Origin: Chloroflexota bacterium
GTDB taxonomy: Bacteria > Chloroflexota > Dormibacteria > Dormibacterales > Dormibacteraceae
Length of the DNA: 39,847 nucleotides
Direction: 5' to 3'
NCBI GenBank assembly: GCA_005887685.1
Contig: VBHJ01000012.1
Coordinates: 1-39,847, forward strand
Shown here: positions 1 to 29,270 of the stretch, in pieces
How positions within the stretch are numbered: position 1 is the first letter of the stretch
How the letters are laid out: every line of letters starts with the position of its first letter
The notes under the pieces: model-generated
The model's database searches: none
Told to the model about the DNA's origin: nothing
The model's input: the letters and a program-made list of their open reading frames with translations, nothing else
Translations under genes and position numbers: made by a program

Positions 1-313
1 CTTCACCCTGACCAGCCAGCCCTGCACCTCGGTCAACGACTCCCCGGCCCCGGCCCCGCCCCAGCCTTCCGGGACCAGCGTCACCTTCACCGCCAGCTCG
101 ACCGGCTGTCCCCACCCGCTCTACGAGTTCTGGATCAAGACGCCCGGCGGGAGCTGGCAGGTCGCCAGGTCCTATTCGAGCAGCAACACCTTCACCTGGA
201 GCACCAACGGGCTGCCCCCGGGCAGCTACCTCTACACGGCCTGGGTGCGTGACGCGAGCAGCAACGCCCCGTACGACGCCTACCTCGTGGCCCAGTCCTA
301 CAGCCTGACCTGA
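1..313 (+). CDS. C-terminal end of a repeat-bearing secreted protein (partial, 5' end outside window)
   Basis: The frame is open from base 2 to a TGA at 311-313 and encodes the last copy of the Cys-containing repeat found four times in each of four other genes here. The copy runs from about 17 to 310. It keeps the PLYEFW core, the W-Q-V strand and the YLYTAW strand, but lacks the SCGSLGCE loop, so two of the four usual cysteines are missing. It ends a few residues after DAYLVAQ, as the other arrays end after DAYFPG. Its catalytic head, if any, lies to the left. It is followed at 321-346 by a phased repeat and at 394 by the next gene of the same kind. Function unknown; membership of the repeat family is clear. 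Confidence 0.85.
   Translation, partial: FTLTSQPCTSVNDSPAPAPPQPSGTSVTFTASSTGCPHPLYEFWIKTPGGSWQVARSYSSSNTFTWSTNGLPPGSYLYTAWVRDASSNAPYDAYLVAQSYSLT
17..310 (+). repeat. stalk repeat, single divergent copy
   Basis: One unit of 98 codons, about 8 codons shorter than the usual 105-107 because the loop with two cysteines between the WVRD and DAY strands is absent. This is a coding repeat, not an intergenic one. Confidence 0.8.
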
Positions 314-320
314 GCGTTCG

Positions 321-346
321 TTAGCCGCACTTAACCACTGTTAACC
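321..346 (+). promoter_or_regulatory. three helically phased TTARCC direct repeats (candidate activator site)
   Basis: TTAGCC at 321, TTAACC at 331 and TTAACC at 341 are spaced exactly 10 bp apart. The last two also form an inverted repeat, TTAAC-CACT-GTTAA at 331-344. They lie about 30 bp upstream of a -10-like element at 375-383 that has no recognisable -35 box. Direct half-sites one helical turn apart are the usual layout for OmpR/PhoB-family response regulators. That a regulator binds here is inference. Confidence 0.4.
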
Positions 347-374
347 CGGTTGCCTCCGGGCCGTCGGGGCCGGC

Positions 375-383
375 TGGTAACAA
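375..383 (+). promoter_or_regulatory. extended -10-like element before the phosphoesterase gene
   Basis: TGG followed by TAACAA (or AACAAT one base on) ends ten bases before the proposed CTG start at 394. No -35 box is seen at the normal spacing and no Shine-Dalgarno site precedes 394, so a leaderless or nearly leaderless transcript is likely. Similar elements precede the genes at 7524, 20337 and 33530. Confidence 0.4.
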
Positions 384-393
384 TCCCCGCGTT

Positions 394-2556
394 CTGCAAA
401 GCCGAAGCCGACTGATTTCCCTTTTCGCCGCCCTTTGCGCCGCGGCGGCGACATCGGTCCCTGCAGCAACGCCGGCGCACGCAACAAGCGTGCCGGCGTA
501 CGACCACGTCTTCGTGATCGTGATGGAGAACCGGGCCTACAACGAGATCATTGGCAGCTCGTCGGCGCCGTACATCAACAGCCTTCTGCCATCGGGCGCC
601 CTTGCGACGAACTACTTCGACGTCAGCCACCCCAGCCTGCCGAACTATCTCGGCCTCGTGGGTGGCAGCACATACGGAATCACCAGCGACTGCACCACCT
701 GCTGGATCTCCGCGGCGAACGTCGCGGACAACCTCGAATCCTCCGGCAGCACCTGGAAGGGCTACATGGAAGGCATGCCTTCCGCGTGCTATGTCGGCGA
801 CAGCTATCCATACGCCCAGAAACACGATCCGTTCGTGTACTTCAACGACATCCGGACGAACACAAGCCGGTGCAACTCCCATGTCGTGCCATACACGCAG
901 CTCTCGAGCGACCTCGGATCGACGTCGACCACACCGAACTACGCATTCATCACACCCGACATGTGCCATGACATGCATGACTGCGCCACGTCGACCGGCG
1001 ACTCGTGGCTGCAGTCGAACGTCCCCCAGATCCTCAACTCGACCGCTTTCAAGACGCAGCGGTCCCTGCTCGTCCTGACCTGGGACGAATCCGAGACGGG
1101 CGACCAGGTGGCCACCATCCTGCTCGGCAGCGGCGTGAGCGCGGGTCGGCGAAGTACCGCCGCATACAACCACTACTCGCTGCTGCATACCATCGAAGCC
1201 GCGCGCGGCCTCTCGACGTTGACCTCGAGCGATGCCGGCGCGGCGACCATGTCCGACCTGTTTGCCACGGTCTCCTCGAGCACGCCGTGCACGGGAGTCG
1301 GCCTCACAGCGTCGCCGTCCAACTCCGCCGCCCCGGGCACCCAGGTTGTCTTCAACGCGACCGCCACCGGATGCCCCAATCCCCTGTACCAGTTCTGGAT
1401 CCTGCCTCCGGGTTCGGCCGGCTGGCAGATCGCCCGGCCTTACTCCACAGGCTCCACGTTCAGCTGGAGCACCAGCGGCCTGGCTGCCGGCACATACCTC
1501 TACACCGTCTGGGCCCGCGACTCGAGCAGTGCGGGGACCGGCTGCGGCAGCCTCGGATGCAGCGACGCCTACTTTCCCGCCGCGGCGTATGCGCTCGGCA
1601 CCGATCCATGCAGCTCCGTGAGCGAGCTCGCTGTTGGGGCTTCACCGCAAGCGGCCGGGAGCACCATCATGTTCACCGCCAGCGCCGTCGGTTGCTCACG
1701 TCCGCTCTACCAGTTCTGGACGCTGGCGCCCGGCCACAGCTGGCAGATCGCCCAGGCCTACTCCGCCGGCGCCACCTTCAGCTGGAACACGACCGGCCTG
1801 GCCCCCGGCAGCTACCTCTACACGGTCTGGGCCCGCGATTCGAGCGGCCCGGGAACCTCCTGCGGCAGCCTGGGTTGCCAGGACGCCTACTTCCCGGGCA
1901 CCGGCTACACCCTGACAGGCCAGCGCTGCAGCTCGGTCACCGAGTCGGCCAGTCCTGGCTCACCGCAGGCATCGGGCACCTCGGTGACCTTCACCGCCGG
2001 CGCCTCCGGCTGCCCCCACCCGCTCTACCAGTTCTGGATCCTGCGCCCCGGTTCCCAATGGCAGGTCGTCCAGGCCTACTCCAGCAGCGCCACCTTCATC
2101 TGGAGCACGACTGGCCTGGCCCCGGGCAGCTACCTCTACACGGTCTGGGCCCGCGATTCGAGCAGCCCGGGTGTCTCCTGCGGCAGCCTGGGTTGCGAAG
2201 ACGCCTACTTCCCGGCCGCCTCCTACAGCCTGACCAGCCAGCCCTGCAGCTCGGTCACCGAGTCGGCCAGCCCCGGCTCACCGCAGGCATCCGGCACCCC
2301 GGTGACCTTCACCGCCAGCGCCTCCGGCTGCCCGCGCCCGCTCTACCAGTTCTGGATCCTCCGCCCCGGTTCCCCATGGCAGGTCGTCCAGGCCTACTCC
2401 AGCAGCGCCACCTTCAGCTGGAACACGACCGGCCTGGCCCCGGGCAGCTACCTCTACACGATCTGGGCCCGGGACGCCAGCAGCACCGGTACCTCGTGCG
2501 GCAGCCTCGGTTGCGAGGACGCCTACTTCCCGGGCACCGCATACACCCTGCGCTGA
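394..2556 (+). CDS. secreted phosphoesterase-family protein with four C-terminal stalk repeats
   Basis: Probably a secreted phosphatase or phospholipase-C-like hydrolase of the phosphoesterase/AcpA type (family assignment by motif recognition). The head, about residues 33-290, has VMENRAYNEIIG, HPSLPNYLGLVGG, PDMCHDMHDC and LTWDESE. These match the family's metal- and phosphate-binding blocks. Residues 297-720 are four repeats. The first ordinary start codon in frame is GTG 490, but that removes a good signal peptide: the codons from 394 read a basic SRSR start, a hydrophobic LISLFAALCAAAA stretch and an ATPAHA cleavage site. Between the stop at 322 and 490 there is no ATG, GTG or TTG in frame, so CTG 394 is my choice (720 residues; 688 from 490). 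Substrate unknown. Phosphate scavenging or action on teichoic or lipid phosphate are both possible. Confidence 0.8.
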   Translation: MQSRSRLISLFAALCAAAATSVPAATPAHATSVPAYDHVFVIVMENRAYNEIIGSSSAPYINSLLPSGALATNYFDVSHPSLPNYLGLVGGSTYGITSDCTTCWISAANVADNLESSGSTWKGYMEGMPSACYVGDSYPYAQKHDPFVYFNDIRTNTSRCNSHVVPYTQLSSDLGSTSTTPNYAFITPDMCHDMHDCATSTGDSWLQSNVPQILNSTAFKTQRSLLVLTWDESETGDQVATILLGSGVSAGRRSTAAYNHYSLLHTIEAARGLSTLTSSDAGAATMSDLFATVSSSTPCTGVGLTASPSNSAAPGTQVVFNATATGCPNPLYQFWILPPGSAGWQIARPYSTGSTFSWSTSGLAAGTYLYTVWARDSSSAGTGCGSLGCSDAYFPAAAYALGTDPCSSVSELAVGASPQAAGSTIMFTASAVGCSRPLYQFWTLAPGHSWQIAQAYSAGATFSWNTTGLAPGSYLYTVWARDSSGPGTSCGSLGCQDAYFPGTGYTLTGQRCSSVTESASPGSPQASGTSVTFTAGASGCPHPLYQFWILRPGSQWQVVQAYSSSATFIWSTTGLAPGSYLYTVWARDSSSPGVSCGSLGCEDAYFPAASYSLTSQPCSSVTESASPGSPQASGTPVTFTASASGCPRPLYQFWILRPGSPWQVVQAYSSSATFSWNTTGLAPGSYLYTIWARDASSTGTSCGSLGCEDAYFPGTAYTLR
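1282..2553 (+). repeat. four tandem stalk repeats in the phosphoesterase
   Basis: Units start at 1282, 1603, 1921 and 2239 (321, 318, 318 and 315 bases). Each codes for PC-x-SVTE-like start, SGCP-PLYQFWIL, WQ-V-AYS, FSW-TTGL, YLYTVWARD, SCGSLGCEDAYFPG and a YTL end. Four cysteines per unit are conserved. Units 3 and 4 are nearly identical at the base level to units 3 and 4 of the amidase gene at 6824-7456. Confidence 0.95.
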
Positions 2557-2629
2557 GCCGGACGGGCAAGATTGCGGCGCCCCCGATCGTTGTTCACGAG
2601 GTGTTCAAGCGCGGCCTTCCTGCGCGGGC

Positions 2630-2635
2630 AGGTGG
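2630..2635 (+). promoter_or_regulatory. Shine-Dalgarno-like site before TTG 2640
   Basis: AGGTGG lies four bases before TTG 2640. It favours this start over GTG 2601, which has no purine-rich site at normal distance. Spacing is on the short side. Confidence 0.35.
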
Positions 2636-2639
2636 TGCC

Positions 2640-4778
2640 TTGAGGTCCTCGGCCGGACGGCGGGTAGCGCTCTCCATCTGCGGCGCCGCGTGCCTGCTCG
2701 CAGTCGGGCCGGCCACCTCCGGGCCGGCAGGGGCTCCGATCAGCGTGCAGTCCGTCCCCACGGCGAGCGGGCCCTGGCTGGACCGCCTGAACCAGTGGCG
2801 AATCAGCACCGGCCTGCCGACGCTGACGGAGAACTCGACCTGGAGCGCCGGCGACTACAACCACGCGCAGTACATGGTCAAGAACGACCTCGTCACCCAC
2901 TACGAGACGCCGGGGGTTCCGTACTACACGGCCGCTGGCGACACCGCCGCCAGAAACGGCAACATCCAGGTCAGCTCCACGACCAGCACCACCGACTCCG
3001 ACGCGATCGACTGGTGGATGGCAGCGCCTTTTCACGCCATGGCCATGATGGATCCCCGACTGACGCAGACGGGGTTCGGCTCCTACAGGGAGGCGAAGTC
3101 GGGCTGGGACGAGGGCGCGGCACTTGACACCATTCGCGGTAATTCGTTCACGGGCGGCAGCTACCCGGTGTACTTCCCGGGCAACGGCACCACCGAACCG
3201 CTGACCACGTACAGCGGCGGAGAGTTTCCCAATCCGCTCCAGGGGTGCCCCTTCTACACCGCGCCAACCGGGTTACCCCTTTTCATCGAGGTCGGCGGAA
3301 ACGTGAACACAACGGCCGGCTCGAACTACCAGCTCGCCGGCAACGGGGTACCGCTCTATTCCTGCGTCATCGACTCTTCCAATGCCGCGCTTGGCAGCTA
3401 CCTCTACACGCGGGGCGCCGTGATCGTGATTCCGCAGCTGCCCCTCCAGTCCGGCGTCAGGTACACGATGTCCCTGACGGTCAACGGAACGCCATACGCC
3501 TGGTCATTCACGGTGGGCAACTTCAGCGCCTGCACATCCGTGACCGAAACCGCAGCGCCGCCGGCTCCCTCAGCGCCAGGGACCACGGTGACGTTCACCG
3601 CGAGCGCCTCGGGCTGCGCACACCCGCTCTACCAGTTCTGGAACCTGGCGCCGGGTCGCTCGTGGCAGATCATGCAGGCTTACTCGACCAGTGCAACGTT
3701 CGCCTGGAGCACGGCGGGACTTCCGATCGGTAACTACCTCTACACAGTCTGGGCGCGCGACTCGAGCAGCCCAGGAGGCTGCGGCAGCCTGGGGTGCGAG
3801 GACGCGTACTTCCCCGCTTCCACCTACACGCTCGGTTCCCCACCGTGCTCGTCGGTCACCGAGTCCGCCGCGCCGGCCTCGCCGCAACAAGCAGGCGCGA
3901 CGGTCACGTTGACCGCCATCGCCTCGGGATGCTCCCGCCCGCTGTACCAGTTCTGGATCCTCCGCCCCGGTTCCCAATGGCAGATCGTCCAGGCCTACTC
4001 CAGCAGCGCCACCTTCATCTGGAGCACTACCGGCCTGGCCCCGGGCAGCTACCTCTACACGGTCTGGGCCCGCGACGCCGGCAGCCCCGGTACCTCGTGC
4101 GGCAGCCTGGGCTGCGAAGACGCCTACTTCCCCGCCTCTCAGTACAGACTGGGATCGACGCCGTGCTCTTCGGTGACGGAGTCCGCCGGCCCTGCGTCGC
4201 CGCAAGCGGCGGGGGCGACCATCACCTTGACCGCCGGCGCCTCCGGCTGCCCCCGCCCCCTCTACCAGTTCTGGATCCTCTGGCAGGTCGTCCAGGCCTA
4301 CTCCAGCAGCACCACCTTCAGCTGGAACACGACCGGCCTGGCCCCGGGCAGCTACCTGTACACGGTCTGGGCTAGGGACACCAGCAGCACGGGAACCTCC
4401 TGCGGCAGCCTGGGTTGCGAAGACGCCTACTTCCCGGGCACCGGCTACACCCTGACCAATCCGCCGTGCAGCTCGGTCACCGAATCGGCCAGCCCCGGCT
4501 CACCGCAGACATCGGGTACCTCGGTGACCTTCACCGCCGGCGCCTCCGGCTGCCCCCGCCCGCTCTACCAGTTCTGGATCCTGGCTCCCGGCCACAGCTG
4601 GCAGGTCGTGCAGGCCTACTCCAGCAGCGCCACCTTCATCTGGAGCACCGCCGGCCTGGCCCCGGGCAGCTACCTCTACACGGTCTGGGCCCGCGATTCG
4701 AGCAGCCCGGGCACCTCCTGCGGCAGCCTGGGTTGCGAAGACGCCTACTTCCCGGGCACCGCGTACACCCTGAGGTAA
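2640..4778 (+). CDS. secreted CAP/SCP-domain protein with four C-terminal stalk repeats
   Basis: An extracellular protein with a CAP-superfamily head (cysteine-rich secretory/PR-1-like; family assignment by motif recognition). From TTG 2640 it starts with arginines and a hydrophobic stretch (RRVALSICGAACLLAVG), a signal peptide. Residues about 45-180 have LNQWRISTGLPTL, DYNHAQYMVKN, HYETPG and PFHAMAMMDPRL-TGFG, the usual CAP layout. Residues about 185-295 form a second beta-rich domain that I do not recognise. Residues 296-712 are four repeats. GTG 2601 would give 725 residues instead of 712. The frame stays open upstream to 1005, but that part is a shadow of the phosphoesterase repeats. Bacterial CAP proteins have no single known reaction, so the role is unknown. 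It lies 84 bases after the phosphoesterase and just before the amidase, a likely co-expressed set. Confidence 0.82.
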   Translation: MRSSAGRRVALSICGAACLLAVGPATSGPAGAPISVQSVPTASGPWLDRLNQWRISTGLPTLTENSTWSAGDYNHAQYMVKNDLVTHYETPGVPYYTAAGDTAARNGNIQVSSTTSTTDSDAIDWWMAAPFHAMAMMDPRLTQTGFGSYREAKSGWDEGAALDTIRGNSFTGGSYPVYFPGNGTTEPLTTYSGGEFPNPLQGCPFYTAPTGLPLFIEVGGNVNTTAGSNYQLAGNGVPLYSCVIDSSNAALGSYLYTRGAVIVIPQLPLQSGVRYTMSLTVNGTPYAWSFTVGNFSACTSVTETAAPPAPSAPGTTVTFTASASGCAHPLYQFWNLAPGRSWQIMQAYSTSATFAWSTAGLPIGNYLYTVWARDSSSPGGCGSLGCEDAYFPASTYTLGSPPCSSVTESAAPASPQQAGATVTLTAIASGCSRPLYQFWILRPGSQWQIVQAYSSSATFIWSTTGLAPGSYLYTVWARDAGSPGTSCGSLGCEDAYFPASQYRLGSTPCSSVTESAGPASPQAAGATITLTAGASGCPRPLYQFWILWQVVQAYSSSTTFSWNTTGLAPGSYLYTVWARDTSSTGTSCGSLGCEDAYFPGTGYTLTNPPCSSVTESASPGSPQTSGTSVTFTAGASGCPRPLYQFWILAPGHSWQVVQAYSSSATFIWSTAGLAPGSYLYTVWARDSSSPGTSCGSLGCEDAYFPGTAYTLR
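3525..4775 (+). repeat. four tandem stalk repeats in the CAP protein, unit 3 with a 15-base deletion
   Basis: Units start at 3525, 3840, 4158 and 4461 (315, 318, 303 and 315 bases). Unit 3 is 15 bases shorter because FWIL runs directly into WQVV at 4280/4281; other copies have RPGSQ or RPGSP between them. The reading frame is kept. Confidence 0.95.
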
Positions 4779-4791
4779 AGCACTCGCGACC

Positions 4792-4811
4792 GACCCAGCG
4801 TTAGCCGGGTC
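4792..4811 (+). terminator. small hairpin between CAP gene and amidase gene
   Basis: GACCC-A-GC, loop GTTA, GC-C-GGGTC gives seven pairs with one mismatch. It starts 14 bases after the CAP stop and ends three bases before ATG 4814. There is no T-tract, so termination is doubtful. It could instead affect translation start of the amidase. A TTAGCC like those at 321-346 lies in it. Confidence 0.3.
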
Positions 4812-4813
4812 AG

Positions 4814-7459
4814 ATGGCATTCGGACTGCGGTACCGTGGGTGTGTGCGCAGGCAGCTTGGGTGGCTGTGCTTCTTGCCTGCTCTGGCCTCACTCACCCAG
4901 TTTCAAACGGTCTCCGCGGGCGTGACGTTCACCTCCGCGATGCAGTCCGCCTCACAGGGGCGGAACGTGCCGCTTCCTCTCCTCGAGGCAACGGCGTACG
5001 TGAACAGTCGATGGGAATGGATACCGACGCCTGCGCGGGATGGCGGGGTCGGTCCGATGCATGTCATGCCCTCGCAGATGGCGTCGGCAGCCGCTTTGAG
5101 TGGGCACAGTCAATCGCAGATCGCCGGCGATCTCAGCGCCAACATCGATGCCGGCGCCGCGCTGCTCGCGCACGCGCATACGACCGGCACCGACCTGGCC
5201 TCGTGGCAACCTGCCGTCTCCGCTGTCCAGGGACCTGAGGTCGCCACTCAGATATTCGATGCGCTGCGATCGGGTGTGACCGGAACCGCCAGCACCGGCG
5301 AGCAGATCGTGCTGGCGCCACAAGCGTCATCGAGCCGTCCCAGCACAGGGGCCGTTCCTTCCGGCGGCGCAACCAACGGAGGCGGGGCGGCGACCAGCGG
5401 CGTGCCCGACTATGGCGGCGCGACGTGGGTTCCGGCCAACCCCGCCAACTACTCGGTGGCCAACCGGCCGCACGACTACCCGGTGCAGATGATCATCATC
5501 CACGACACCGAGGGCAGCTACGGCTCGGCGATCCAGCTGTTCCAGGATCCATCGACCCAGGCTTCTGCGCACTACGTCGTCGCAGACGCGGGTCAGATCA
5601 CGCAGATGGTGGCCGAGAAAGACATCGCGTGGCACGCGGGCAACTGGGACTACAACACGCGGGCCATCGGCATCGAGCACGAGGGCTATGCGTATGCGCA
5701 GCCCACGTGGTACACGGCCGCCATGTACCAGGCGAGCGCGCACCTCATCGCGTCCATCTGCTCACGGTGGGGAGTGCCGATGGATCGCACGCACGTCATC
5801 GGCCACAGCGAGGTCCCCGATCCGAACAACCCCGGCCTCTATGGCGGTTCTGACCACCACACGGACCCCGGTCCCTACTGGGACTGGACCTACTACATGG
5901 GGCTTGCGCAAAATTACGCCGCCGCACTGCCGAGTCCGCCGCACATGATGCCCGACCCCGTGGCCCAGATGAGCGGTACGAGCGCGACCATCAACTGGCA
6001 GCCCGCTCAGACCTGCCACTCGCCAATCACCGGCTACACCGTCACCGGGCAACCGGGCAACCTCGTCATGAGCATGCCGGCGAACGCGCGGTCGGCCACG
6101 TTCAACGGTCTCCAGCGCGGCGTTGACTACACCTTCACCGTGACCGCAACCGACGCGGATGGGCAAGACACGTTGACCGCCCAGTGGCGCTGCGCGGCGG
6201 TCACGGAGTCCGCCAACCCGGGCACGCCTCAGGCGTCGGGCACCACGGTCAACTTCACCGCGAGCGCGACCGGCTGTCCCCACCCCCTCTATCAGTTCTG
6301 GATCCTGCCGCCTGGCTCTCAGACGTGGCGGAACGTGCAGCCCTATTCGGCCGGTGCGACCTACGCCTGGAACACCAGCGGCCTGGCCGCCGGCAGCTAC
6401 CTCTACACGGTCTGGGCCCGCGACGCCACCAGCGCTGGCGCCTCCTGCAGCAGCCTGGGCTGCGAAGACGCCTTCCTTCCAGCCCCGACCTTCACGCTGA
6501 CGAGGCAGCCATGCACCTCGGTCAGCGAATCCGCGGCGCCCGCCTCCCAGGCGACGACTGGCACCACGATCACCTTCACCGCCAGCGCTTCTGGCTGTCC
6601 CCACCCTCTCTACCAGTTCTGGATGCTGGCTCCCGGCCGCAGCTGGCAGATCGCCCAGGCCTACTCCGCCGGCGCCACCTTCAGCTGGAACACGACCGGC
6701 CTGGCCCCGGGCAGCTACCTCTACACGGTCTGGGCCCGCGATTCGAGCAGCCCGGGAACCTCCTGCGGCAGCCTGGGTTGCGATGACGCCTACTTCCCGG
6801 CCGCCTCCTACAGGCTGACGGGCCAGCGCTGCAGCTCGGTCACCGAGTCGGCCAGTCCCAGCTCACCGCAGGCATCGGGCACCTCGGTGACCTTCACCGC
6901 CAGCGCCTCCGGCTGCCCCCACCCGCTCTACCAGTTCTGGATCCTGCGCCCCGGTTCCCAATGGCAGGTCGTCCAGGCCTACTCCAGCAGCGCCACCTTC
7001 ATCTGGAGCACGACCGGCCTGGCCCCGGGCAGCTACCTCTACACGGTTTGGGCCCGCGATTCGAGCAGCCCGGGTGTCTCCTGCGGCAGCCTGGGTTGCG
7101 AAGACGCCTACTTCCCGGCCGCCCCCTACAGCCTGACCAGCCAGCCCTGCAGCTCGGTCACCGAGTCGGCCAGTCCCGGCTCACCGCAGGCATCCGGCAC
7201 CCCGGTGACCTTCACCGCCAGCGCCTCCGGCTGCCCCCGCCCGCTCTACCAGTTCTGGATCCTCCGCCCCGGTTCCCCATGGCAGGTCGTCCAGGCCTAC
7301 TCCAGCAGCGCCACCTTCAGCTGGAGCACGACCGGCCTGGCCCCGGGCAGCTACCTCTACACGGTCTGGGCCCGCGATTCGAGCAGCCCCGGTACCTCGT
7401 GCGGCAGCCTGGGTTGCGAGGACGCCTACTTCCCGGGCACCGCCTACAACTTGTCCTGA
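4814..7459 (+). CDS. secreted N-acetylmuramoyl-L-alanine amidase (PGRP/Amidase_2) with SLT-like and FN3 domains and four stalk repeats
   Basis: Likely cleaves the amide bond between muramic acid and the stem peptide. Domains in order: signal peptide (1-35); a small lysozyme/SLT-like domain (about 37-155) with LLEATAYVNSRW and GGVGPMHVMPSQ; a Ser/Gly/Ala linker; the amidase (about 215-355) with IIIHDTEGS, SAHYVV, WHAGNW, IGIEHEG, VIGHSEV and DHHTDPGP; an FN3-like domain (about 375-455); repeats from 458 to the end. Candidate zinc ligands are the His of HDTEGS, a His of DHHTD and the following Asp. In the SLT-like part the usual catalytic ES reads NS, so that domain may bind rather than cut. 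GTG 4844 gives an equally good signal peptide (VRRQLGWLCFLPALASL) and has TACCGT seven bases before it, so the true start is ATG 4814 or GTG 4844. Confidence 0.9.
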   Translation: MAFGLRYRGCVRRQLGWLCFLPALASLTQFQTVSAGVTFTSAMQSASQGRNVPLPLLEATAYVNSRWEWIPTPARDGGVGPMHVMPSQMASAAALSGHSQSQIAGDLSANIDAGAALLAHAHTTGTDLASWQPAVSAVQGPEVATQIFDALRSGVTGTASTGEQIVLAPQASSSRPSTGAVPSGGATNGGGAATSGVPDYGGATWVPANPANYSVANRPHDYPVQMIIIHDTEGSYGSAIQLFQDPSTQASAHYVVADAGQITQMVAEKDIAWHAGNWDYNTRAIGIEHEGYAYAQPTWYTAAMYQASAHLIASICSRWGVPMDRTHVIGHSEVPDPNNPGLYGGSDHHTDPGPYWDWTYYMGLAQNYAAALPSPPHMMPDPVAQMSGTSATINWQPAQTCHSPITGYTVTGQPGNLVMSMPANARSATFNGLQRGVDYTFTVTATDADGQDTLTAQWRCAAVTESANPGTPQASGTTVNFTASATGCPHPLYQFWILPPGSQTWRNVQPYSAGATYAWNTSGLAAGSYLYTVWARDATSAGASCSSLGCEDAFLPAPTFTLTRQPCTSVSESAAPASQATTGTTITFTASASGCPHPLYQFWMLAPGRSWQIAQAYSAGATFSWNTTGLAPGSYLYTVWARDSSSPGTSCGSLGCDDAYFPAASYRLTGQRCSSVTESASPSSPQASGTSVTFTASASGCPHPLYQFWILRPGSQWQVVQAYSSSATFIWSTTGLAPGSYLYTVWARDSSSPGVSCGSLGCEDAYFPAAPYSLTSQPCSSVTESASPGSPQASGTPVTFTASASGCPRPLYQFWILRPGSPWQVVQAYSSSATFSWSTTGLAPGSYLYTVWARDSSSPGTSCGSLGCEDAYFPGTAYNLS
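6185..7456 (+). repeat. four tandem stalk repeats in the amidase
   Basis: Units start at 6185, 6506, 6824 and 7142 (321, 318, 318 and 315 bases), the same unit lengths in the same order as in the phosphoesterase. Unit 3 differs from unit 3 of the phosphoesterase (1921-2238) at about six bases by hand count. Confidence 0.95.
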
Positions 7460-13676: not shown

Positions 13677-15167
13677 ATGCAGGAACCGATCGCGGTCGCC
13701 GACGGTCCACTGTGGCGCGTCGCGCGCCACCTGGGCGTGTACAGCGTCGGATCGGCAATCTCGCTGGTCTGCTCGTTTTCCCTTCTGCCGGTCTACGCCA
13801 CGCAGTTCTCGCCTCGGCAGTTCGGCGTCGCCGCAACCGGACAGGTGATCGCCCTCGCCGCCACGGTCGTGGCGCGCCTGGGGCTCAACAGCGGGATGTT
13901 CCGTTTTCTCGCCGAGTACAACGCGGCGGGCGAGGCGGACTCTGCCGACAGAGCCGTGACGACGTCGATGACGACCGCGTTCGTGAGCTCCCTGTTCGTG
14001 ACCGTCGTCATGCTGGCCGGCTGGGCCGTCTTCGGGCGCGGGACGTCGACCGACATCCAGCTCAGCGGGACGCTCATCGCTCTCAACGTCGTCCTGTCCG
14101 CACCGCGCGAGATGGCCGAGTTCGCGGTGCGAGCCAAGCAGCAGTCTCGCTCATATGTGATCTTCACCTCGACCACGACGGTCCTCACCACTGCGCTCAC
14201 CGCCGGACTCGCGATCTTCTTTCACGCCGGCGCCGTGGCGGTTTTCGCCAGCGCGGTCATCGCGAACGCATTGATGAGCGCCGTTGGGATCTGGCTTGTG
14301 AGGCAGCATCTCAAGCTCGATGCCTTCTCCAGGACTGAGCTCCGCCAGGCCCTGAGATTCGGCATCCCCGGCGTGCCCGCGCTTCTGGCCGACTGGATCA
14401 TGCAGTTCTCGGACCGGCTGTTCATCACCAGGTTCGCGAGCCTCGCCCAGGCGGGCGTCTACAGCCTCGGCTATCGCATCGGGCTGATCGAGCAGCAGGT
14501 CCTGGGCACGGCGACGTCGGCCGCGTGGGACCCGTTCGTTCTGAGCGAGTACCGCAACCCGGACGGAACCAGGACCATCGGCAGGGTCGCCACGTATTTC
14601 GCCATGATCGGGATGGCCCTTGTCGTTTTCATCTCGGCGTCCGCGCCAGTCTTGCTGACGATCATCCATGCCCGCCAGGAGTATTTCGCCGCAACTTCAG
14701 TGGTCTTCCTGATCGCCTTCGCCAACTTCTTCGCCACGCTGCAGCACATGCTCAGTGCGCCGACAGCGATCCGGCTTCGCCCGGAGCTCGGCACCATGTA
14801 CCGAGGGGTGGGGGCCGCGGTGAACATCGCCCTGAACTTCGCGCTGATCCCAACCTTCGGCATGCTCGGCGCGGCCTGGTCGACGGTCGCGACCTACGTG
14901 ATCACGGCGCTGATCACGCTGGTGGTGTCGCGCAGGGTGATGCGGATCGAGTACGAGTACCGCAAGCTGCTCCTCATCGTCGCCGGCGGAATCGGCGTCC
15001 AGCTCGTCATCACCCTTGCGCAGCGCTCCGGAATGTCGCCACTCACGGTGCTGAGCCCGCTCTGGTCGCTGGGGCTCCTCGGCGCGTGGCTCGTCGCGAC
15101 GAATACGTTCTCGGTGGGAGAGGCCCGTTCGCTCGCCCGCCGCCTGCGCCAGGTGGTGGCGACGTGA
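13677..15167 (+). CDS. Wzx-type flippase (MOP/MATE superfamily polysaccharide transporter)
   Basis: A 496-residue membrane protein with about 14 hydrophobic segments, expected to flip the undecaprenyl-linked repeat unit across the membrane. Family signs: GVYSVGSAISLVCSF at the first helix, SPRQFGVAATGQ, LRFGIPGVPALLADWIMQFSDR in the middle (the conserved cytoplasmic helix pair), and a GAAWSTVATYVITALI helix near the end. Length is normal for Wzx. It starts at ATG 13677, ten bases after GT-like A, and its stop overlaps GTG 15164 as GTGA, so translation of the three genes is coupled. Confidence 0.88.
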   Translation: MQEPIAVADGPLWRVARHLGVYSVGSAISLVCSFSLLPVYATQFSPRQFGVAATGQVIALAATVVARLGLNSGMFRFLAEYNAAGEADSADRAVTTSMTTAFVSSLFVTVVMLAGWAVFGRGTSTDIQLSGTLIALNVVLSAPREMAEFAVRAKQQSRSYVIFTSTTTVLTTALTAGLAIFFHAGAVAVFASAVIANALMSAVGIWLVRQHLKLDAFSRTELRQALRFGIPGVPALLADWIMQFSDRLFITRFASLAQAGVYSLGYRIGLIEQQVLGTATSAAWDPFVLSEYRNPDGTRTIGRVATYFAMIGMALVVFISASAPVLLTIIHARQEYFAATSVVFLIAFANFFATLQHMLSAPTAIRLRPELGTMYRGVGAAVNIALNFALIPTFGMLGAAWSTVATYVITALITLVVSRRVMRIEYEYRKLLLIVAGGIGVQLVITLAQRSGMSPLTVLSPLWSLGLLGAWLVATNTFSVGEARSLARRLRQVVAT

Positions 15168-17064: not shown

Positions 17065-18441
17065 TCAGGCCCTGGCGCGGGCCGGGTCCGACCACATGCC
17101 CGCCAACACCTTCGCCAGGCGCTGGTTGTCGTCGCCCAATCCAAGTCCGACGTAGTTGGGCCGGTCGCCCGCCTTCTTGCGGAGGATGCGCCAGGCGTCG
17201 ATCACGAGAGTGGACTGCGGAATCGTGGCCATGTCGAGGTCGGCGTAGGCACGGTCGGGATTCATGATCACGATCACGTCCTTCTCCTTGATCGCCTCAT
17301 CGACATTCGACGCGTAGATCACCTGGTCACCGAGCACCCCGCGCGCCGAATCCATCGCCATCGGGTCGTGGACCGTGACGCTGGCACCCGATCCGACCAG
17401 GCTCTTCGCCAGCAGAAAGCCGGCGCTCTCCTCGATCACGTTGCTGTCGGGCTTGTAGGACAGGCCCAGCACGGCCACGGAGCCCCCGTCAGGAACGTTC
17501 TCCAGCACGCGGGCCGCCAGGCGCTCGTTGGTCGATCCGTTGAACTGGTGGACCGCCTCGGCGAGCGACGCTCTCTGGCCGAGCTGCCGCGCCAGGTAGG
17601 CAAGGGCCTGGTTGTCGCGAGGAAAGCACGGGCCGCCATACGCCACCGCACCCTTGAGGTAGCGCCGTCCGATGCGGGTGTCGAGCCCCAGCGCGGCCGT
17701 GACGGTGTCGACGTCGCCACCTGGCAGCTGCTCGCTCAGGGCCGCGACCATGTTGGCGAACGAGATCCTCATCGTCACGTAGGCGTTGACCGAGATCTTG
17801 GTCAGCTCGGCGTTGACCAGGCTCATTCGCGCGACCGCCGGCTCGTTGTCGCAGACCTCCGTGTAGATGGCGGCCAGCTGGTCGCCGGAGCGCTCGTCGA
17901 ACTCGCCGATCAGGAGAAACTCGGGGTTGAGAAAGTCGCGGATGACCTGGCCGAGCGCGATGAACTCCGGGCTGTAACAGACGCCGAAGTCATCGCCGCA
18001 GCGCTTGCCAGACTCCTGCTCGAGGACGCGGATCATCCCGTACTCGGTCGACCCGGGCAGGACCGTGCTCGTCAGCACGACCAGGTGGTATTCCGACTTC
18101 TTGCGCAATGCGCGGCCTATCGAGCGGGCCGCTTCGAGCACGTAGCTGATCGAAAAGCCGCCCTCGTCCGTGCTCGGAGTCGGAACGACGATGAAGGTCG
18201 CCTCGGACGACTGCACCGCGTCGTTGATGTCCTGCGTCGCCCGTAGCCGTGGGTGCGCCCGGGCCATCATCTCTTCCAGCCCCGGCTCGATGACCGGCGA
18301 CTTGCCTTTGTTGACGACGTCGACCGTGCGCGCCGAAACGTCCGCGCCGACCACGGAGAAGCCTTTGTCGGCGAAGCAGGCCGCGATGACGGCGCCGAGC
18401 TTGCCAAGGCCGATGACCGAGACGGGTCGTTTCTTTGTCAT
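17065..18441 (-). CDS. UDP-glucose/GDP-mannose dehydrogenase family enzyme
   Basis: Oxidises the C6 alcohol of a nucleotide sugar to a uronic acid using two NAD+. The Rossmann motif VIGLGKLGA is at residues 8-16. VVPTPSTDEGG, LTSTVLPGSTE, YSPEFIALG and NAELTKISVNAYVTMRIS follow. The catalytic cysteine is Cys272 in YGGPCFPRDN. The C-terminal domain has LGLSYKPDSNVIEES and VHDPMA. 458 residues is slightly longer than usual. Its ATG overlaps the epimerase stop by four bases (ATGA). The exact substrate (UDP-glucose or another NDP-hexose) cannot be read from the sequence. Confidence 0.9.
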   Translation of the reverse strand: MTKKRPVSVIGLGKLGAVIAACFADKGFSVVGADVSARTVDVVNKGKSPVIEPGLEEMMARAHPRLRATQDINDAVQSSEATFIVVPTPSTDEGGFSISYVLEAARSIGRALRKKSEYHLVVLTSTVLPGSTEYGMIRVLEQESGKRCGDDFGVCYSPEFIALGQVIRDFLNPEFLLIGEFDERSGDQLAAIYTEVCDNEPAVARMSLVNAELTKISVNAYVTMRISFANMVAALSEQLPGGDVDTVTAALGLDTRIGRRYLKGAVAYGGPCFPRDNQALAYLARQLGQRASLAEAVHQFNGSTNERLAARVLENVPDGGSVAVLGLSYKPDSNVIEESAGFLLAKSLVGSGASVTVHDPMAMDSARGVLGDQVIYASNVDEAIKEKDVIVIMNPDRAYADLDMATIPQSTLVIDAWRILRKKAGDRPNYVGLGLGDDNQRLAKVLAGMWSDPARARA

Positions 18442-19550
18442 GACCGCTTACCCGACGCCTTGGCGGCGCCGGCCGGCTCCGGCTTGCTCTCGCCGCGCTC
18501 GGTGAGCATGCGGCCGAAGTAGCCGCGGACGACCTCCGGTTCCTTGGTCGAGAAGTACCAGTCGATCGTGCGGTGCAGCCCGTCGAAGAACTTCATCTGA
18601 GGGCTCCAGCCGATCAGGTCCTTCGCGCGCTGGTTGCTCGCCACCCGGTTCAAGGGGCCGGTCGGCATGTTGGTCAGGAACTTGATGTCCGCCTTCTTGT
18701 TCGTGTAACGCAGCACTTCGTGAACGGCATCGATGACTCGCGTCCGCTCCATCGTGCCGAGGTTGATGGGGGTGCCGTCGACCACGTCGCTCTCGGCCGC
18801 GGCGACCATGCCATCGGCGATGTCGCCGACATAGGTCCAGTTGCGGATCTGCGTCCCGTCGCCCCACACCTCGAACGGGTTCTGGTCGATGAACGCCCTG
18901 GCGATCATCGCGATCACCGCGTGGTTTTCCACACCGCGCTCGCCGTAGACCGTGAACAGCCGGCACGAGACGGACCGCAGCCCGATCTGCCGGTGCCACG
19001 ACTGGAGCGCCAGCTCGCCCATGAGCTTGGCCCAGCCGTACATGTGGTCCGAGTCGTAGGGGGGACCGACCATCTCCTCGGTCAGGTAGAGCTCCTTGGA
19101 GATGTCCTGCTGGATGTAGTTCGGGTAGACGCAGCCCGACGACGCGAACACGAACTTGTCGACGTTCGCGTCGATCGCAGACTTCACCATCAGTCCGTCC
19201 ATGACGAGGTTGCGACCGCATTCGGCGTCGTGCATCTCGACGTAGCCGCGGCCGCCGTGGATCGCGGCGAGGTGGAACACGTAGTCGATGCCGCGGCAGG
19301 CCTCATCCGTTGCGCCCGGCGCCAGGAGGTCGGCGCGCACGAGCTCGACGACGCCGCTGTCGATGTGCCCCTTGATGTTGTCGACGGTGCCGCTCGACAG
19401 GTCGTCCACCACGCGAACGTGCCGCGCGCCGCGCTCGACTAGGCGGTCGACGACGTGCGAGCCAATGAATGAAGCGCCGCCCGTGACCAGCACGCTCTTG
19501 CCGGACCAGTCGAAGGAACGAGTGCCGTGTTGATTCTTGTTTTGAGTCAA
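18438..19550 (-). CDS. extended SDR nucleotide-sugar epimerase/dehydratase
   Basis: A 370-residue extended short-chain dehydrogenase that would change the configuration of an NDP-sugar. VLVTGGASFIGSHVV (about 21-35) binds NAD. ASSGCVYPNY supplies the Ser position, and Tyr171/Lys175 in MYGWAK are the catalytic pair. SCRLFTVYGERG and WGDGTQIRNWTYVGDIA are the usual substrate-side blocks. The SSGCVYP/PPYDSDHMYGWAK pattern reminds me of GDP-mannose 3,5-epimerase, but this is a weak hint. TTG 19550 is the start, with GGAG nine bases before it. First gene of the minus operon. Confidence 0.87.
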   Translation of the reverse strand: MTQNKNQHGTRSFDWSGKSVLVTGGASFIGSHVVDRLVERGARHVRVVDDLSSGTVDNIKGHIDSGVVELVRADLLAPGATDEACRGIDYVFHLAAIHGGRGYVEMHDAECGRNLVMDGLMVKSAIDANVDKFVFASSGCVYPNYIQQDISKELYLTEEMVGPPYDSDHMYGWAKLMGELALQSWHRQIGLRSVSCRLFTVYGERGVENHAVIAMIARAFIDQNPFEVWGDGTQIRNWTYVGDIADGMVAAAESDVVDGTPINLGTMERTRVIDAVHEVLRYTNKKADIKFLTNMPTGPLNRVASNQRAKDLIGWSPQMKFFDGLHRTIDWYFSTKEPEVVRGYFGRMLTERGESKPEPAGAAKASGKRS

Positions 19551-21513: not shown

Positions 21514-22734
21514 ATGCGGATCTGGATCGTCAACCACTACGCCGACCCGCCGGACGGCCTCGCCACGCGAAGCTTCGACATCGCGAGGCGGATGGTCGAG
21601 AAGGGCCATCCCACCACCATCTTCGTGTGCGCCTTCAGCCACTACCACCTGAGCCCACTGCGCAGGCTCGGATGGCGCCTCTGGCGAAGAGAAGACATCG
21701 ACGGCGTCCTTTTCATATGGATCGCCGGCAACGCCTACCGGGGCAACGACTGGCGGCGGATGCTGAACATGGTGCTCTTCAGCTGGCTCGCCTTCTTCGC
21801 TGGCTTGATGCGCCGCGAGCGTCCCGACATCGTGGTCGGCGTCTCGGTGCATCCACTGGCCGCTCTGACCGGGTACTTCCTGGCGAGGATCAAGAAAGCC
21901 CGCTTCTTCTTCGAGGTGACGGATCTGTGGCCCCAGACCTTGATCGACTTCGGAAGGCTGCGGCCTGACGGACGTGCGGCGCGCGCCATGCGAACGCTCG
22001 AGCGATACCTGTTCAAAAGGGCCGAGCGAATCGTGATGCTGTGGCGCCACACCGACTCCTACGTCGAATCCCAGGGAGTGTCGCCGTCCAAGATCCTGTG
22101 GATTCCGCATGGGGTCGAGCTCGAGCGCTACGAGGAGCTCGCACCCTACGAAGGCGCGCCCGACCGTCCGTTCCGAATCATGTTTCTCGGCGGGTTCGTG
22201 GCCGCCAACTCGATCGACAGCATCCTCGACGTCGCGGCCGTTCTGCAGCGGCGCGGGCGCCATGACATCAAGTTCCTCATGGTGGGCGCGGGCCAGGAAC
22301 GCGACGCGCTGATCGCCCGCGCGACCTCGATGAACCTGACCGACATGGAGTTTCGGCCCGCGGTGCCCAAGCGCGAGGTTGGCAGGACAATGGGAGAAGC
22401 CGATGCCTTCATCTACGGCCTGCGTGATCTCCCCCTCTACAGGTTCGGGATCAGCCTCAACAAGCTCACGGATTACCTCGCGTCGGGAAGGCCGATCATC
22501 TTCTTCGGCCGCTCCACCTACGATCCCGTCCAGGAGGCGAAGGCGGGCGTCAGCGTCCCACCCGGCGACCCGGAGATCCTGGCCGATGCGATCGAGCGCC
22601 TGGTCGCTTTGAGTCCAGGCGAGCGGATGGAGATGGGCGAACGCGGGCGCCGATACCTGCTCGAGCACCACGACATCCCCGGACTTGCGGTCCGGCTGCT
22701 GGAGGTCTTCGAGAAGGAACCGGTGCCGGCGTGA
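21514..22734 (+). CDS. GT4-family glycosyltransferase (WbuB/WcaI-like)
   Basis: A 406-residue GT-B enzyme. The N-terminus MRIWIVNHYADPP and the phrase FFEVTDLWPQTLIDFG match the GT4 group of WbuB-like transferases that act on lipid-linked acceptors. The C-terminal half has IPHGVELERY, IMFLGGFVAANSID, KFLMVGAGQERDAL and KLTDYLASGRPIIF with the usual Gly-rich loop. ATG 21514 follows GGAG (21500-21503) at about ten bases. It overlaps the next gene by four bases (GTGA at 22731). Likely an inner-face sugar transferase for the repeat unit. Confidence 0.88.
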   Translation: MRIWIVNHYADPPDGLATRSFDIARRMVEKGHPTTIFVCAFSHYHLSPLRRLGWRLWRREDIDGVLFIWIAGNAYRGNDWRRMLNMVLFSWLAFFAGLMRRERPDIVVGVSVHPLAALTGYFLARIKKARFFFEVTDLWPQTLIDFGRLRPDGRAARAMRTLERYLFKRAERIVMLWRHTDSYVESQGVSPSKILWIPHGVELERYEELAPYEGAPDRPFRIMFLGGFVAANSIDSILDVAAVLQRRGRHDIKFLMVGAGQERDALIARATSMNLTDMEFRPAVPKREVGRTMGEADAFIYGLRDLPLYRFGISLNKLTDYLASGRPIIFFGRSTYDPVQEAKAGVSVPPGDPEILADAIERLVALSPGERMEMGERGRRYLLEHHDIPGLAVRLLEVFEKEPVPA

Positions 22735-28519: not shown

Positions 28520-29270
28520 CCACGCCCACGCCCACGCGAAGTCCTTTCGCTCCCCGCAGGAGCGCATGGTGGGAAAAGAGATCGAGAAGGTCTTCGATGG
28601 GTCCTCGGATTCCATCGAGGTGCGCCTCGAGAACTTCCCGAAGTACGTGCGCCGTCAACACCTCACCCGCCTGATCGCGCTGTACGAGCTGTTCAAGAAG
28701 GTCATCCCCGTCAAGGGCTCGATCGTCGAGTGCGGCGTGAATCGTGGCTTTGGATTGATGACCTGGGCCAAGCTGAGCGCGGTCCTCGAGCCGAACAACC
28801 TCACGCGCCGCATCTATGGCTTCGACACCTTCGACGGATTCCCCGCGATCTCGCTCCACGACCGAGCCGGACATGGCTGGGCCGAGCGAGGCGAGCTTCG
28901 CGCCGACTCCTACGAGGAGCTGGAGCGTCTGATCGAGCTTTACGACAAGGACCGTTTTCTGGGCCACATCCCCAAGGTCGAGCTGGTCCGCGGTGACGCG
29001 ACCGAGACGATTCCCGACTTCATGGAGGACCACCCTCACCTCGTGGTCAGCCTGCTGTTCCTGGACTTCGACCTATACGAGCCGACCAAGGCGGCGATCG
29101 ATGCGTTCGTCCCGCGCATGACGAGAGGCGCGATACTCGCGTTCGACGAGCTCGACAACCCGGTGTGGCCCGGCGAGACGCTGGCGCTGCTCGACACGCT
29201 CGGTATCGACAAGCTGCGGCTGGAGCGGCTCGAATTCGACCCCTACATCGCTTTTGTTAGCATTCCGTAG
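28509..29270 (+). CDS. TylF/MycF-family O-methyltransferase
   Basis: A 253-residue protein of the macrocin-O-methyltransferase (TylF) family, whose members methylate sugar hydroxyls and need a metal ion. Visible: SIVECGVNRGFGLMTWA (SAM site), IYGFDTFDGFP, RGDATETIPDF, SLLFLDFDLYEPTKAAI (the metal-binding Asp pair) and GAILAFDELDNPVWPGE. ATG 28509 follows GGAGG at 28493-28497 and overlaps the dehydratase by 11 bases. The stop is two bases before the transketolase start. Probable role: O-methylation of a deoxy- or aminosugar of the polysaccharide. Confidence 0.88.
   Translation: MSRSHAHAHAKSFRSPQERMVGKEIEKVFDGSSDSIEVRLENFPKYVRRQHLTRLIALYELFKKVIPVKGSIVECGVNRGFGLMTWAKLSAVLEPNNLTRRIYGFDTFDGFPAISLHDRAGHGWAERGELRADSYEELERLIELYDKDRFLGHIPKVELVRGDATETIPDFMEDHPHLVVSLLFLDFDLYEPTKAAIDAFVPRMTRGAILAFDELDNPVWPGETLALLDTLGIDKLRLERLEFDPYIAFVSIP

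Follow-up and report, generated by a model that had tools for sequence, protein, structure and literature searches.

Why should several secreted proteins with unrelated heads, encoded in a single locus, all end in an array of the same repeat? We addressed this question in a stretch of 39,847 nucleotides, here called the window (C220:1-39847, in an assembly of 264 contigs), for which an earlier note had proposed that a fixed number of repeats forms a spacer or anchor of set length.

Repeat arrays in the window

Each of four complete genes in the window has exactly four copies of a repeat of ~105 residues at its C-terminal end. On the plus strand, a phosphoesterase gene (394..2556; PF04185, E 2e-24) carries the array at 1285-2553, a CAP gene (2640..4778; PF00188, E 1.2e-10) carries it at 3528-4775, and a gene with an Amidase_2 domain (4814..7459; PF01510, E 1.8e-35) and an fn3 domain (E 3.7e-13) carries it at 6188-7456. 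On the minus strand, a GH18 gene (35804..38278; PF00704, E 5.9e-20) carries it at 35807-37066. By profile, the four arrays span 422, 415, 422 and 419 residues in this order, with spacings between copies of 107/106/106, 105/106/101, 107/106/106 and 105/105/105 residues. Copy 3 of the CAP gene lacks a short loop (101 residues versus 105-106). A further plus-strand frame, the 3' end of a gene truncated by the contig start (2..313), holds one copy at 20-307. Profile, spacings and Pfam heads thus bear out the description of four such genes with unrelated heads and of a fifth, partial one, while an SLT-like domain that had been read in the third gene is absent from its Pfam listing at E<=1. A search of the genome with a single copy recovered all 17 window copies at E <=1.5e-31, and the 13 other window copies that were aligned share 62-88% identity with the reference copy, so the likeness of the repeats is not due to chance.

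An Ig-like repeat related to Y_Y_Y

The repeat is an Ig-like domain related to the Pfam family Y_Y_Y (PF07495, triple tyrosine motif). Three of the four proteins exceed the gathering cut-off of 26.6 bits (P0001 34.8, P0002 31.0 and P0003 40.3 bits), a relative (L041) reaches 95 bits, and P0004 has no Y_Y_Y match listed at E<=1. The view that the repeat belongs to no named domain was therefore wrong in part, and we reject an unnamed new domain. The predicted fold is all-beta and Ig-like. Among the best 50 of 1,998 Foldseek matches, nearly all are Ig domains of the antibody type, at TM-scores near 0.5-0.6, which we take solely as indicating a probable Ig-like fold. The model of four repeats has a pTM of 0.50, so we claim no geometry between domains. 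Two or four cysteines are present in 227 of 237 repeat copies.

Other searches gave no closer assignment. The repeat has no match below E 0.01 among PDB sequences, and matches to coronavirus peptidase C30 in Pfam and PDB are below cut-off and were taken as chance. A local match of 40-53 bits to NCBIfam PRK14081 (triple tyrosine protein, equivalog) is below its cut-off of 842 bits. SLH, CWB2, LysM and choline-binding domains have no Pfam match at E<=1 in the four window proteins. In sensor proteins, Y_Y_Y usually follows a Reg_prop propeller on its C-terminal side. In contrast, the arrays described here are mostly C-terminal on secreted proteins without such a propeller: Pfam lists no Reg_prop for the window proteins or their relatives, and the heads are enzymes, CAP, other propellers or unknown.

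Copy number varies among carriers

We surveyed 61 genomes, consisting of the window's own and 60 relatives, with a copy-counting profile rebuilt from the carriers themselves. Of 72 carrier frames, 43 were complete in that the array ended <=30 residues from the stop. Four copies are the mode but not the rule: 24 complete carriers have four, six have six, five have five, four have three, and one each has nine, eight, two and one. Within the window's own genome, a GH18 carrier beyond the window edge has six copies, and a further cut frame has four divergent ones. Carriers with widely varying repeat numbers, which the earlier note had named beforehand as speaking against its proposal, were thus found, at 1-9 copies per complete carrier. 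In addition, orthologous heads elsewhere bear unrelated modules, lectin-type ones among them, whose lengths range from about 265 to 610 residues, so that neither length nor sequence is conserved. A fixed-length spacer is therefore an unlikely role for the array, and we reject it.

Unrelated modules on the same heads

The same heads recur across the 61 genomes, and in many of them unrelated C-terminal modules stand in place of the window's repeat. Head searches found 57 GH18, 20 amidase, 16 CAP and >150 phosphoesterase matches. For typing of tails, up to 30 loci were taken per head search, together with stretches chosen by place, some of them for a long frame; most genomes are fragmented MAGs. 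After six phosphoesterase matches of <50% identity and four shadow frames were dropped, 145 rows became 135. Motif typing recognised no module in 35 rows (18 of the 28 phosphoesterase rows and 17 of the remaining 107); hand typing resolved seven of them, so that 28 of 135 have no type. Eleven rows in all were hand-typed from sequence, and the type of G001 rests on one motif copy in cut tails.

One of the alternative modules, type F, is homologous in sequence to a lectin. The CAP tail of G003 matches eight sequences of the Photorhabdus lectin family, the best being the sugar-binding lectin PHL (5mxe, E 7.4e-86), and the type F modules of G003, G017, G020, G029 and G040 group with this tail. At 265-334 residues, their length suggests fewer than seven blades. 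Judged by sequence, lectin homology is seen for no other type: B and E have no PDB sequence match at E<=0.1, D has two weak matches (E 0.068), and C and G match through TIG or fn3 parts only.

Within a genome, the modules are mostly of one type. Different heads of one genome share their type in 63 of 77 typed pairs (63 of 79 with the PKD-type phosphoesterase tails, which are otherwise left out), compared with a mean of 15.6 and a maximum of 34 in 10,000 permutations. A test free of typing, on 87 tails of >=115 residues that included PKD and previously untyped tails, gave the same picture, with a shared tail in 62 of 86 within-genome pairs (permutation mean 16%, maximum 31%; 2,000 permutations). 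Exceptions are G025 and G034 (types C and G), G022 (types B and G), G026 (one odd CAP), G029 (two heads differ) and G040 (two suites), as well as G033, in which a further head, UNKA, has a tail of type G.

Such uniformity would also be expected if the partner were an S-layer protein, a lipoprotein or a secretion or sorting receptor, with module and protein receptor exchanged as a pair. A non-glycan anchor of this kind would likewise account for the C-terminal position, as the array ends <=5 residues from the stop in 42 of 43 complete carriers, and the T9SS C-terminal sorting domain (TIGR04183) does give a match, although its best score of 17.6 bits (E 0.0027) is below the cut-off of 23. However, one module type is a lectin homologue, and in G022, G025 and G034 the module lies N-terminal of the CAP domain, which is impossible for a C-terminal sorting signal. 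We consider this explanation quite improbable.

Modules have been exchanged between relatives

Module type varies among species of a single GTDB genus, and it does not follow descent. On an RpoB tree of 26 of 30 genomes (no match in G021, G034, G035 and G366; the G007 frame is a long branch and probably frame-broken), module type needs 15 changes, compared with a shuffled mean of 15.8 and a value as low in 68 of 200 shuffles. Vertical inheritance of the type is therefore rejected. Exchange is seen in a tandem pair of GH18 genes. Between G014 and G019 the orthologous heads are 71% and 63% identical while the tails are unrelated (E 0.66 and 1.8), whereas within one genome the two paralogues are more alike in their tails than in their heads (43% heads and 71% tails in G014; 47% and 76% in G019; 47% and 87% in G026). 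Matches in six cross-type blastn comparisons fell within suite genes, except for one unplaced match of 138 bases; in a seventh, between two type E genomes, both heads and tails match.

Copies within a genome are also homogenised. Copies 3-4 of the Amidase_2 gene and copies 3-4 of the phosphoesterase gene, which lie near each other, are 96.7% identical in DNA over 633 bases, so these last four repeats have been homogenised recently. Among the 212 of 268 repeats that could be tested (two loci repeating the same gene were left out), 150 are closer to repeats of other heads in the same genome than to those of the same head elsewhere.

These observations could be read as requiring no ligand at all, the repeats being generic extracellular beads subject to neutral gene conversion, and the types differing through movement of whole clusters between species. 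The near-identical stretch fits such a reading, and so does the GH18 tree, in which heads of one type often group (18 changes, 8 groups, versus 31.1 when shuffled), as whole-cluster transfer would predict. Gene conversion is, however, unable to make an unrelated module appear on several heads. G003 and G005 have CAP heads that are sisters in the RpoB tree (96/92) as well as in the CAP tree (SH-aLRT 85), yet these heads bear unrelated modules. Both tandem GH18 paralogues differ in type together between genomes, and suite genes far apart can share a type, as do those of G026 at a distance of 100 kb. We thus regard the ligand-free reading as rather unlikely. As judged from sequence comparison, closely related species have swapped a shared tail for an entirely different one on many enzymes. 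Such an exchange suggests that the tail has to fit some variable feature of the cell, most probably the sugar polymer of its own surface.

Polysaccharide genes surround the suite

The window's suite genes lie in a polysaccharide-biosynthesis locus. Genes between them encode, on the plus strand, a flippase-type protein (Polysacc_synt / Polysacc_synt_3; 13677..15167), a Wzy_C O-antigen ligase family protein (22731..25229), a TylF-type methyltransferase (28509..29270), a split transketolase-like pair (29273..31038; N part 29273-30100, pyrimidine and C parts 30097-31038), a DegT/DnrJ/EryC1 aminotransferase (31028..32125) and, near it, a further methyltransferase (32730..33506), and, on the minus strand, a UDP-glucose/GDP-mannose dehydrogenase (17065..18441) and an NAD-dependent sugar epimerase/dehydratase (18438..19550).

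Some of these genes track the module type. TylF has matches at E<=1e-30 in only five of the 61 genomes, its own included, and DegT is 86-91% identical in four other genomes, with an additional 44% match in G009. The five genomes with both TylF and DegT at >=76% identity are all of the window's stalk type (P 8e-5 to 1.3e-4 for a random draw from 61 genomes, 11 or 12 of them of this type, a calculation that ignores relatedness, which inflates these figures). Neighbouring non-suite genes are common to 22 of 29 same-type versus 15 of 124 different-type genome pairs, figures likewise inflated by relatedness and drawn from a comparison of unequal regions. The type E genomes G019 and G026, and the type C genomes G014 and G025/G034, have no common neighbouring non-suite gene at the threshold used; the coupling to glycan genes is seen for types A and B. 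Around the suites of seven genomes with other module types, 77 pooled neighbouring ORFs include 10 Glycos_transf_1, 6 Wzy_C and 6 Epimerase. All three families are missing from the 25 listed for 93 control ORFs, which caps each at one in the controls, and against that bound the Fisher P is 0.003 for Glycos_transf_1 and 0.047 for Wzy_C.

This setting bears on whether the module is directed at the producer or at others. The enzymes might be released and steered by their shared module towards other microbes or a common substrate such as fungal or bacterial walls, in the manner of umbrella toxins or endolysins, with the module shifting along with the main prey or competitor. Heads of wall- or lipid-active families (Amidase_2, GH18, PF04185) would suit such a role, and Streptomyces umbrella particles are indeed steered to target glycopolymers by diverse C-terminal lectins, according to the part of PMC13274773 available. 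On the other hand, the window's genes lie in the producer's own glycan locus, several suite heads are not hydrolases but propellers or unknown, and umbrella genomes often hold several diversified lectins by that partial account, while the genomes here are mostly uniform. We consider target-directed lectins unlikely.

Discussion

We give about an even chance to the array being an interchangeable glycan-binding retention module, matched to the producer's own surface polysaccharide, rather than a ruler. The idea that it binds a surface polymer is favoured by the polysaccharide-locus setting and by the homology of one module to a Photorhabdus lectin, and from these we infer the binding itself. Likewise, we infer that the window's type binds a glycan, that this glycan is the cell's own, and that a change of polymer drives the exchange.

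Under this retention model, a suite enzyme or propeller protein would leave the cell, and its C-terminal module would bind the surface or matrix polysaccharide non-covalently, the target being made by the locus that houses several suite genes. Repeats or propeller blades would act as several weak binding sites, with four Ig-like copies as the usual dose in the window's type. Because the proposed ligand is a polymer specific to the lineage, suite proteins of one genome would need the same module. Capsule, O-antigen and exopolysaccharide loci switch readily. After a switch, any secreted protein that needs to remain on the cell must hold on to the new polymer, and a suite with a common tail exchanged as a set would be one solution. 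The module would be replaced by an unrelated one on many heads, and recombination between copies would afterwards keep one genome's modules alike. More tentatively, and with the balance somewhat against it, these steps may amount to a polysaccharide-matched 'address system', in which the suite's lectin-like module is replaced in concert at a polysaccharide switch, by an unrelated fold if needed. If true, serotype switching would re-equip many secreted proteins at once and module type would predict polysaccharide type. A tail exchanged as a set would also let its type be read as a marker of surface glycans that are otherwise unknown in uncultured bacteria of the soil. With several unrelated modules occurring naturally on the same heads, there is also a ready panel for comparing what tails bind.

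Gram-positive bacteria hold surface proteins through non-covalent wall anchors (choline-binding, SLH, CWB2, LysM) that are generally constant within a lineage. The arrays resemble these in that one module, in a typical copy number, serves many different surface enzymes, but their type differs between species of a single GTDB genus, and the four window proteins have no Pfam match to such anchors at E<=1. The rbm genes of Vibrio cholerae adjoin the vps polysaccharide genes.

PHL of Photorhabdus is a stand-alone seven-bladed lectin, as described in the available part of PMC5584973, whereas the homologous type F module is fused to enzymes. The UmbA lectins of Streptomyces, in the text available (PMC13274773), are interchangeable C-terminal modules that recognise variable wall glycopolymers and come in many folds, propellers and an Ig-like family among them; they are often diversified per genome and aimed at other species, whereas here many heads share one module. 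A further parallel is with the secreted matrix proteins Bap1/RbmC and RbmA of Vibrio cholerae, in which a beta-propeller module binds the cell's own exopolysaccharide VPS (PMC10102183, in the part available). That text describes few matrix proteins and one polysaccharide, and the available part mentions neither an enzyme suite nor module exchange. In both systems, one module is common to secreted proteins with different functional domains, and, like the rbm genes, the suite genes adjoin polysaccharide genes, both in the window and, pooled against controls, in seven other neighbourhoods.

Four-copy arrays at the ends of the window's proteins

The earlier note held that each of four complete genes in the window closes with four copies, no more and no fewer, of a repeat of about 105 residues, and profile reading of the translations bore this out; one further copy, 101 residues long, belongs to a gene truncated where the contig begins. 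Copies follow one another at a spacing of 105-107 residues, the exception being copy 3 of the CAP protein, where a short loop is missing and the spacing is 101. By Pfam, the four heads (the N-terminal parts) are a PF04185 phosphoesterase, a CAP domain, Amidase_2 with fn3, and GH18. The arrays end, by profile, one residue short of the last residue of the protein, and no C-terminal transmembrane or LPXTG-type sequence was visible by eye in the four translations. Thus, to judge from these termini, any retention of the proteins should be non-covalent. Where the usual GH18 motif has D, both the window's GH18 gene (35804-38278) and locus L028 have N (DGVNIDYE), while the E is kept.

The repeat itself is Ig-like. 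Y_Y_Y (PF07495) scored above the Pfam cut-off in three of the four window proteins, besides other Ig-type matches, and AlphaFold2 gave a confident all-beta model of a single copy (pLDDT 97, pTM 0.87) whose best Foldseek matches were Ig domains. Of 237 copies, 227 contain either two or four cysteines, and the second pair is concentrated in the window's genome (21 of 26 copies) and one relative, G007 (23 of 24), versus 4 of 187 elsewhere (Fisher P 2e-36, the copies not being independent). The highest Y_Y_Y score obtained (95 bits) belongs to a different architecture at locus L041 (MNES01000063.1, 3168-6632), a 1,155-residue frame with six repeats towards its N-terminal side and then 445 residues.

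Carriers and copy number

A repeat search of the window's genome returned 27 matches: the window's genes, on contig C91 a GH18 carrier with six copies, and on contig C42 a truncated frame whose four copies are divergent. Among 61 genomes (the window's own and 60 relatives), 17 had matches at E<=0.001 in a patchy spread, five of them with 31-41 matches. When 400 genomes were drawn evenly from the phylum and at most 12 candidates were scored in each, 17 had a match at E<=1e-6, 15 of these from the same class. Named public records with the repeat are soil MAGs titled Chloroflexi, Candidatus Dormiibacterota and, once, Acidobacteria. Locus L043 (4,762 bases, filed as Acidobacteria gp7) has amidase and phosphoesterase carriers side by side with tails of the window's type, one copy being 85% identical to a copy of locus L046; its filing under another phylum reflects either horizontal transfer or a binning error.

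The number four had been taken as constant. It is the commonest count, found in 24 of 43 complete carriers (uncut, head >150 residues, tail <30; 72 carrier frames in all), but the range is 1-9: six copies in 6, five in 5, three in 4, and 9, 8, 2 and 1 once each. Four is preferred, not fixed. The heads recur as a suite: those of frames found via the repeat clustered as GH18 (16), amidase + fn3 (10), CAP or TIG (8), PQQ-type propeller (7), phosphoesterase (6), YCF48-type propeller (3), four singletons, and two families of 4 each, UNKA (L033, L088, L107) and UNKB (L039, L045, L084, L094), in whose scanned members nothing in Pfam matched at E<=0.001.

Orthologous heads with other tails

We then searched for four of these heads irrespective of tail, and found GH18 in 34, amidase in 18, CAP in 15 and phosphoesterase in 57 of the 61 genomes; tails were read in a subset of the matches. 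Where a genome lacks the repeat, the orthologous heads bear different repetitive modules in the corresponding position. We named the types A (the window's), B (NEW3-like), C, D, E, F (PLL-type) and G. Type C is found in genome G014 on two GH18 heads and on the CAP, phosphoesterase and UNKA heads. In G030 the GH18, amidase and CAP heads all have type B, and in G021 the GH18 and amidase heads have type D. Type F occurs in G003 on the amidase, on CAP and, at 34% identity, on a PQQ-type frame.

Different heads within a genome mostly agreed in type, in 63 of 77 typed pairs (four heads; permutation mean 15.6, maximum 34 in 10,000). Agreement held with one of each sister pair removed (59 of 70) and in genomes without type A (16 of 24; permutation mean 3.0, maximum 10). 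By BLAST coverage without typing, 62 of 86 within-genome pairs were alike (permutation mean 16%, maximum 31% in 2,000), while the same head across genomes had a similar tail in 197 of 1,217 pairs.

A tandem pair of old GH18 paralogues provides the clearest case. When G014 is compared with G019, gene 1 heads are 71% and gene 2 heads 63% identical, with no similarity between the tails; within a genome, heads versus tails are 43% and 71% identical in G014, 47% and 76% in G019, and 47% and 87% in G026. Both genes thus differ in type together. G003 and G005 have CAP heads that are 72% identical, and sisters both on the CAP tree (SH-aLRT 85) and by RpoB (96/92), yet their tails are unrelated; the G003 CAP tail is 49% identical to the G003 amidase tail.

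Tail type does not follow descent: on an RpoB tree of 26 genomes, type needs 15 changes versus 15.8 after label shuffling, and 68 of 200 shuffles gave a number as low. Inside the window's GTDB genus, at RpoB 95-97% identical to the window's, types A (G004, G009, G015), C (G001, G014), E (G011) and F (G003) all occur. The GH18 head tree requires 16 type changes across the typed rows and shows clustering of types, so heads moving along with their tail account for part of the pattern.

Agreement is not complete. Types agree in 10 of 14 genomes with at least two typed GH18 genes (G000, G007, G009, G011, G014, G015, G019, G026, G033, G035) and disagree in G025, G034, G040 and G046. G040 has two parallel suites (L103-L107, L217, L211), of types A and F, with GH18, phosphoesterase and PQQ heads in both; the type F suite is on contig C12, plus one GH18 on C72. 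C and G are mixed in G025 and G034, B and G in G022; the UNKA head of G033 has a G-type tail, the tail of one CAP protein in G026 is unmatched, and the two tails of G029 differ in type. Amidase tails of G022 (L149), G030 (L148) and G033 (L146), typed B by hand, have one Y_Y_Y copy after fn3 and then NEW3-like repeats, and the G031 amidase has a single Y_Y_Y copy; these are possible intermediates of module exchange. In three CAP proteins (L166 of G022, L168 of G034, L169 of G025), the repeat module is N-terminal of the CAP domain.

Likeness within a genome extends to single repeats. For 212 testable of 268 repeats, the nearest repeat was on a different head of the same genome in 150 and on the same head of another genome in 62, a same-genome fraction of 0.71 versus a permutation mean of 0.39 (maximum 0.49, 100 permutations). 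Same-genome likeness was found for 144 of 191 repeats in the last four copies versus 6 of 21 head-proximal extra copies (Fisher P 3e-5), a sequence pattern indicating that homogenisation concerns the former, not the latter. Within the window, DNA identity between copies 3-4 of the phosphoesterase gene and copies 3-4 of the amidase gene is 96.7% across 633 bases.

Glycan genes around the suite

Between the window's suite genes lie a flippase-type polysaccharide gene, a UDP-sugar dehydrogenase, an epimerase, a Wzy_C protein, a TylF methyltransferase, a split transketolase, a DegT aminotransferase and other methyltransferases; of 20 window ORFs scanned, 8 were without a match at E<=1e-5. The transketolase is split in two genes (29273-31038) adjoining DegT, possibly for unusual sugar synthesis. 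A sugar epimerase adjoins the C91 GH18 gene.

In seven genomes of other types, 77 neighbour ORFs included 10 Glycos_transf_1, 6 Wzy_C, 6 Epimerase, 4 Polysacc_synt_2 and 3 DegT, counted as one total for all seven and from greedy longest-ORF selection, in which some ORFs are not genes. For 93 control ORFs from other places in these genomes, none of the five families was among the 25 listed (at most one each).

TylF and DegT were found at >=76% identity in five of the 61 genomes (G000, G004, G007, G015, G035), all type A and of two genera; DegT also had a 44% match in type A G009, and the remaining type A genomes had no match at the thresholds used. Both are present (72% and 84%) in G366, a type A genome of a third genus. 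Non-suite neighbours at >=60% identity were common to 22 of 29 same-type versus 15 of 124 different-type genome pairs. Sister pairs left out, same-type genomes had 69 common neighbour ORFs versus a permutation mean of 18.7 (maximum 65); the signal stems from types A and B, and neither the type E genomes nor the type C genomes, sisters aside, had any non-suite neighbour in common at this identity.

Relation to known systems

One type F tail is homologous to the Photorhabdus PHL/PLL lectins (E 7.4e-86), and PHL binds fucosylated sugars and an O-methylated disaccharide (PMC5584973). Since the window's module swaps with a lectin on the same heads, sits in a glycan locus and is mostly uniform per genome, it is best read as a putative lectin that would bind the cell's own polymer.

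The Ig-like repeat, the lectin propeller and the wall-active enzymes are already known kinds; listings from searches of open-licence PubMed Central papers held no precedent for a suite that exchanges unrelated modules in concert. The closest worked-out case comes from Vibrio cholerae: Bap1 and RbmC have a common beta-propeller, which binds the biofilm polysaccharide VPS (PMC10102183). In contrast, umbrella toxins follow the opposite pattern, often with several lectins per genome, aimed at others (PMC13274773).
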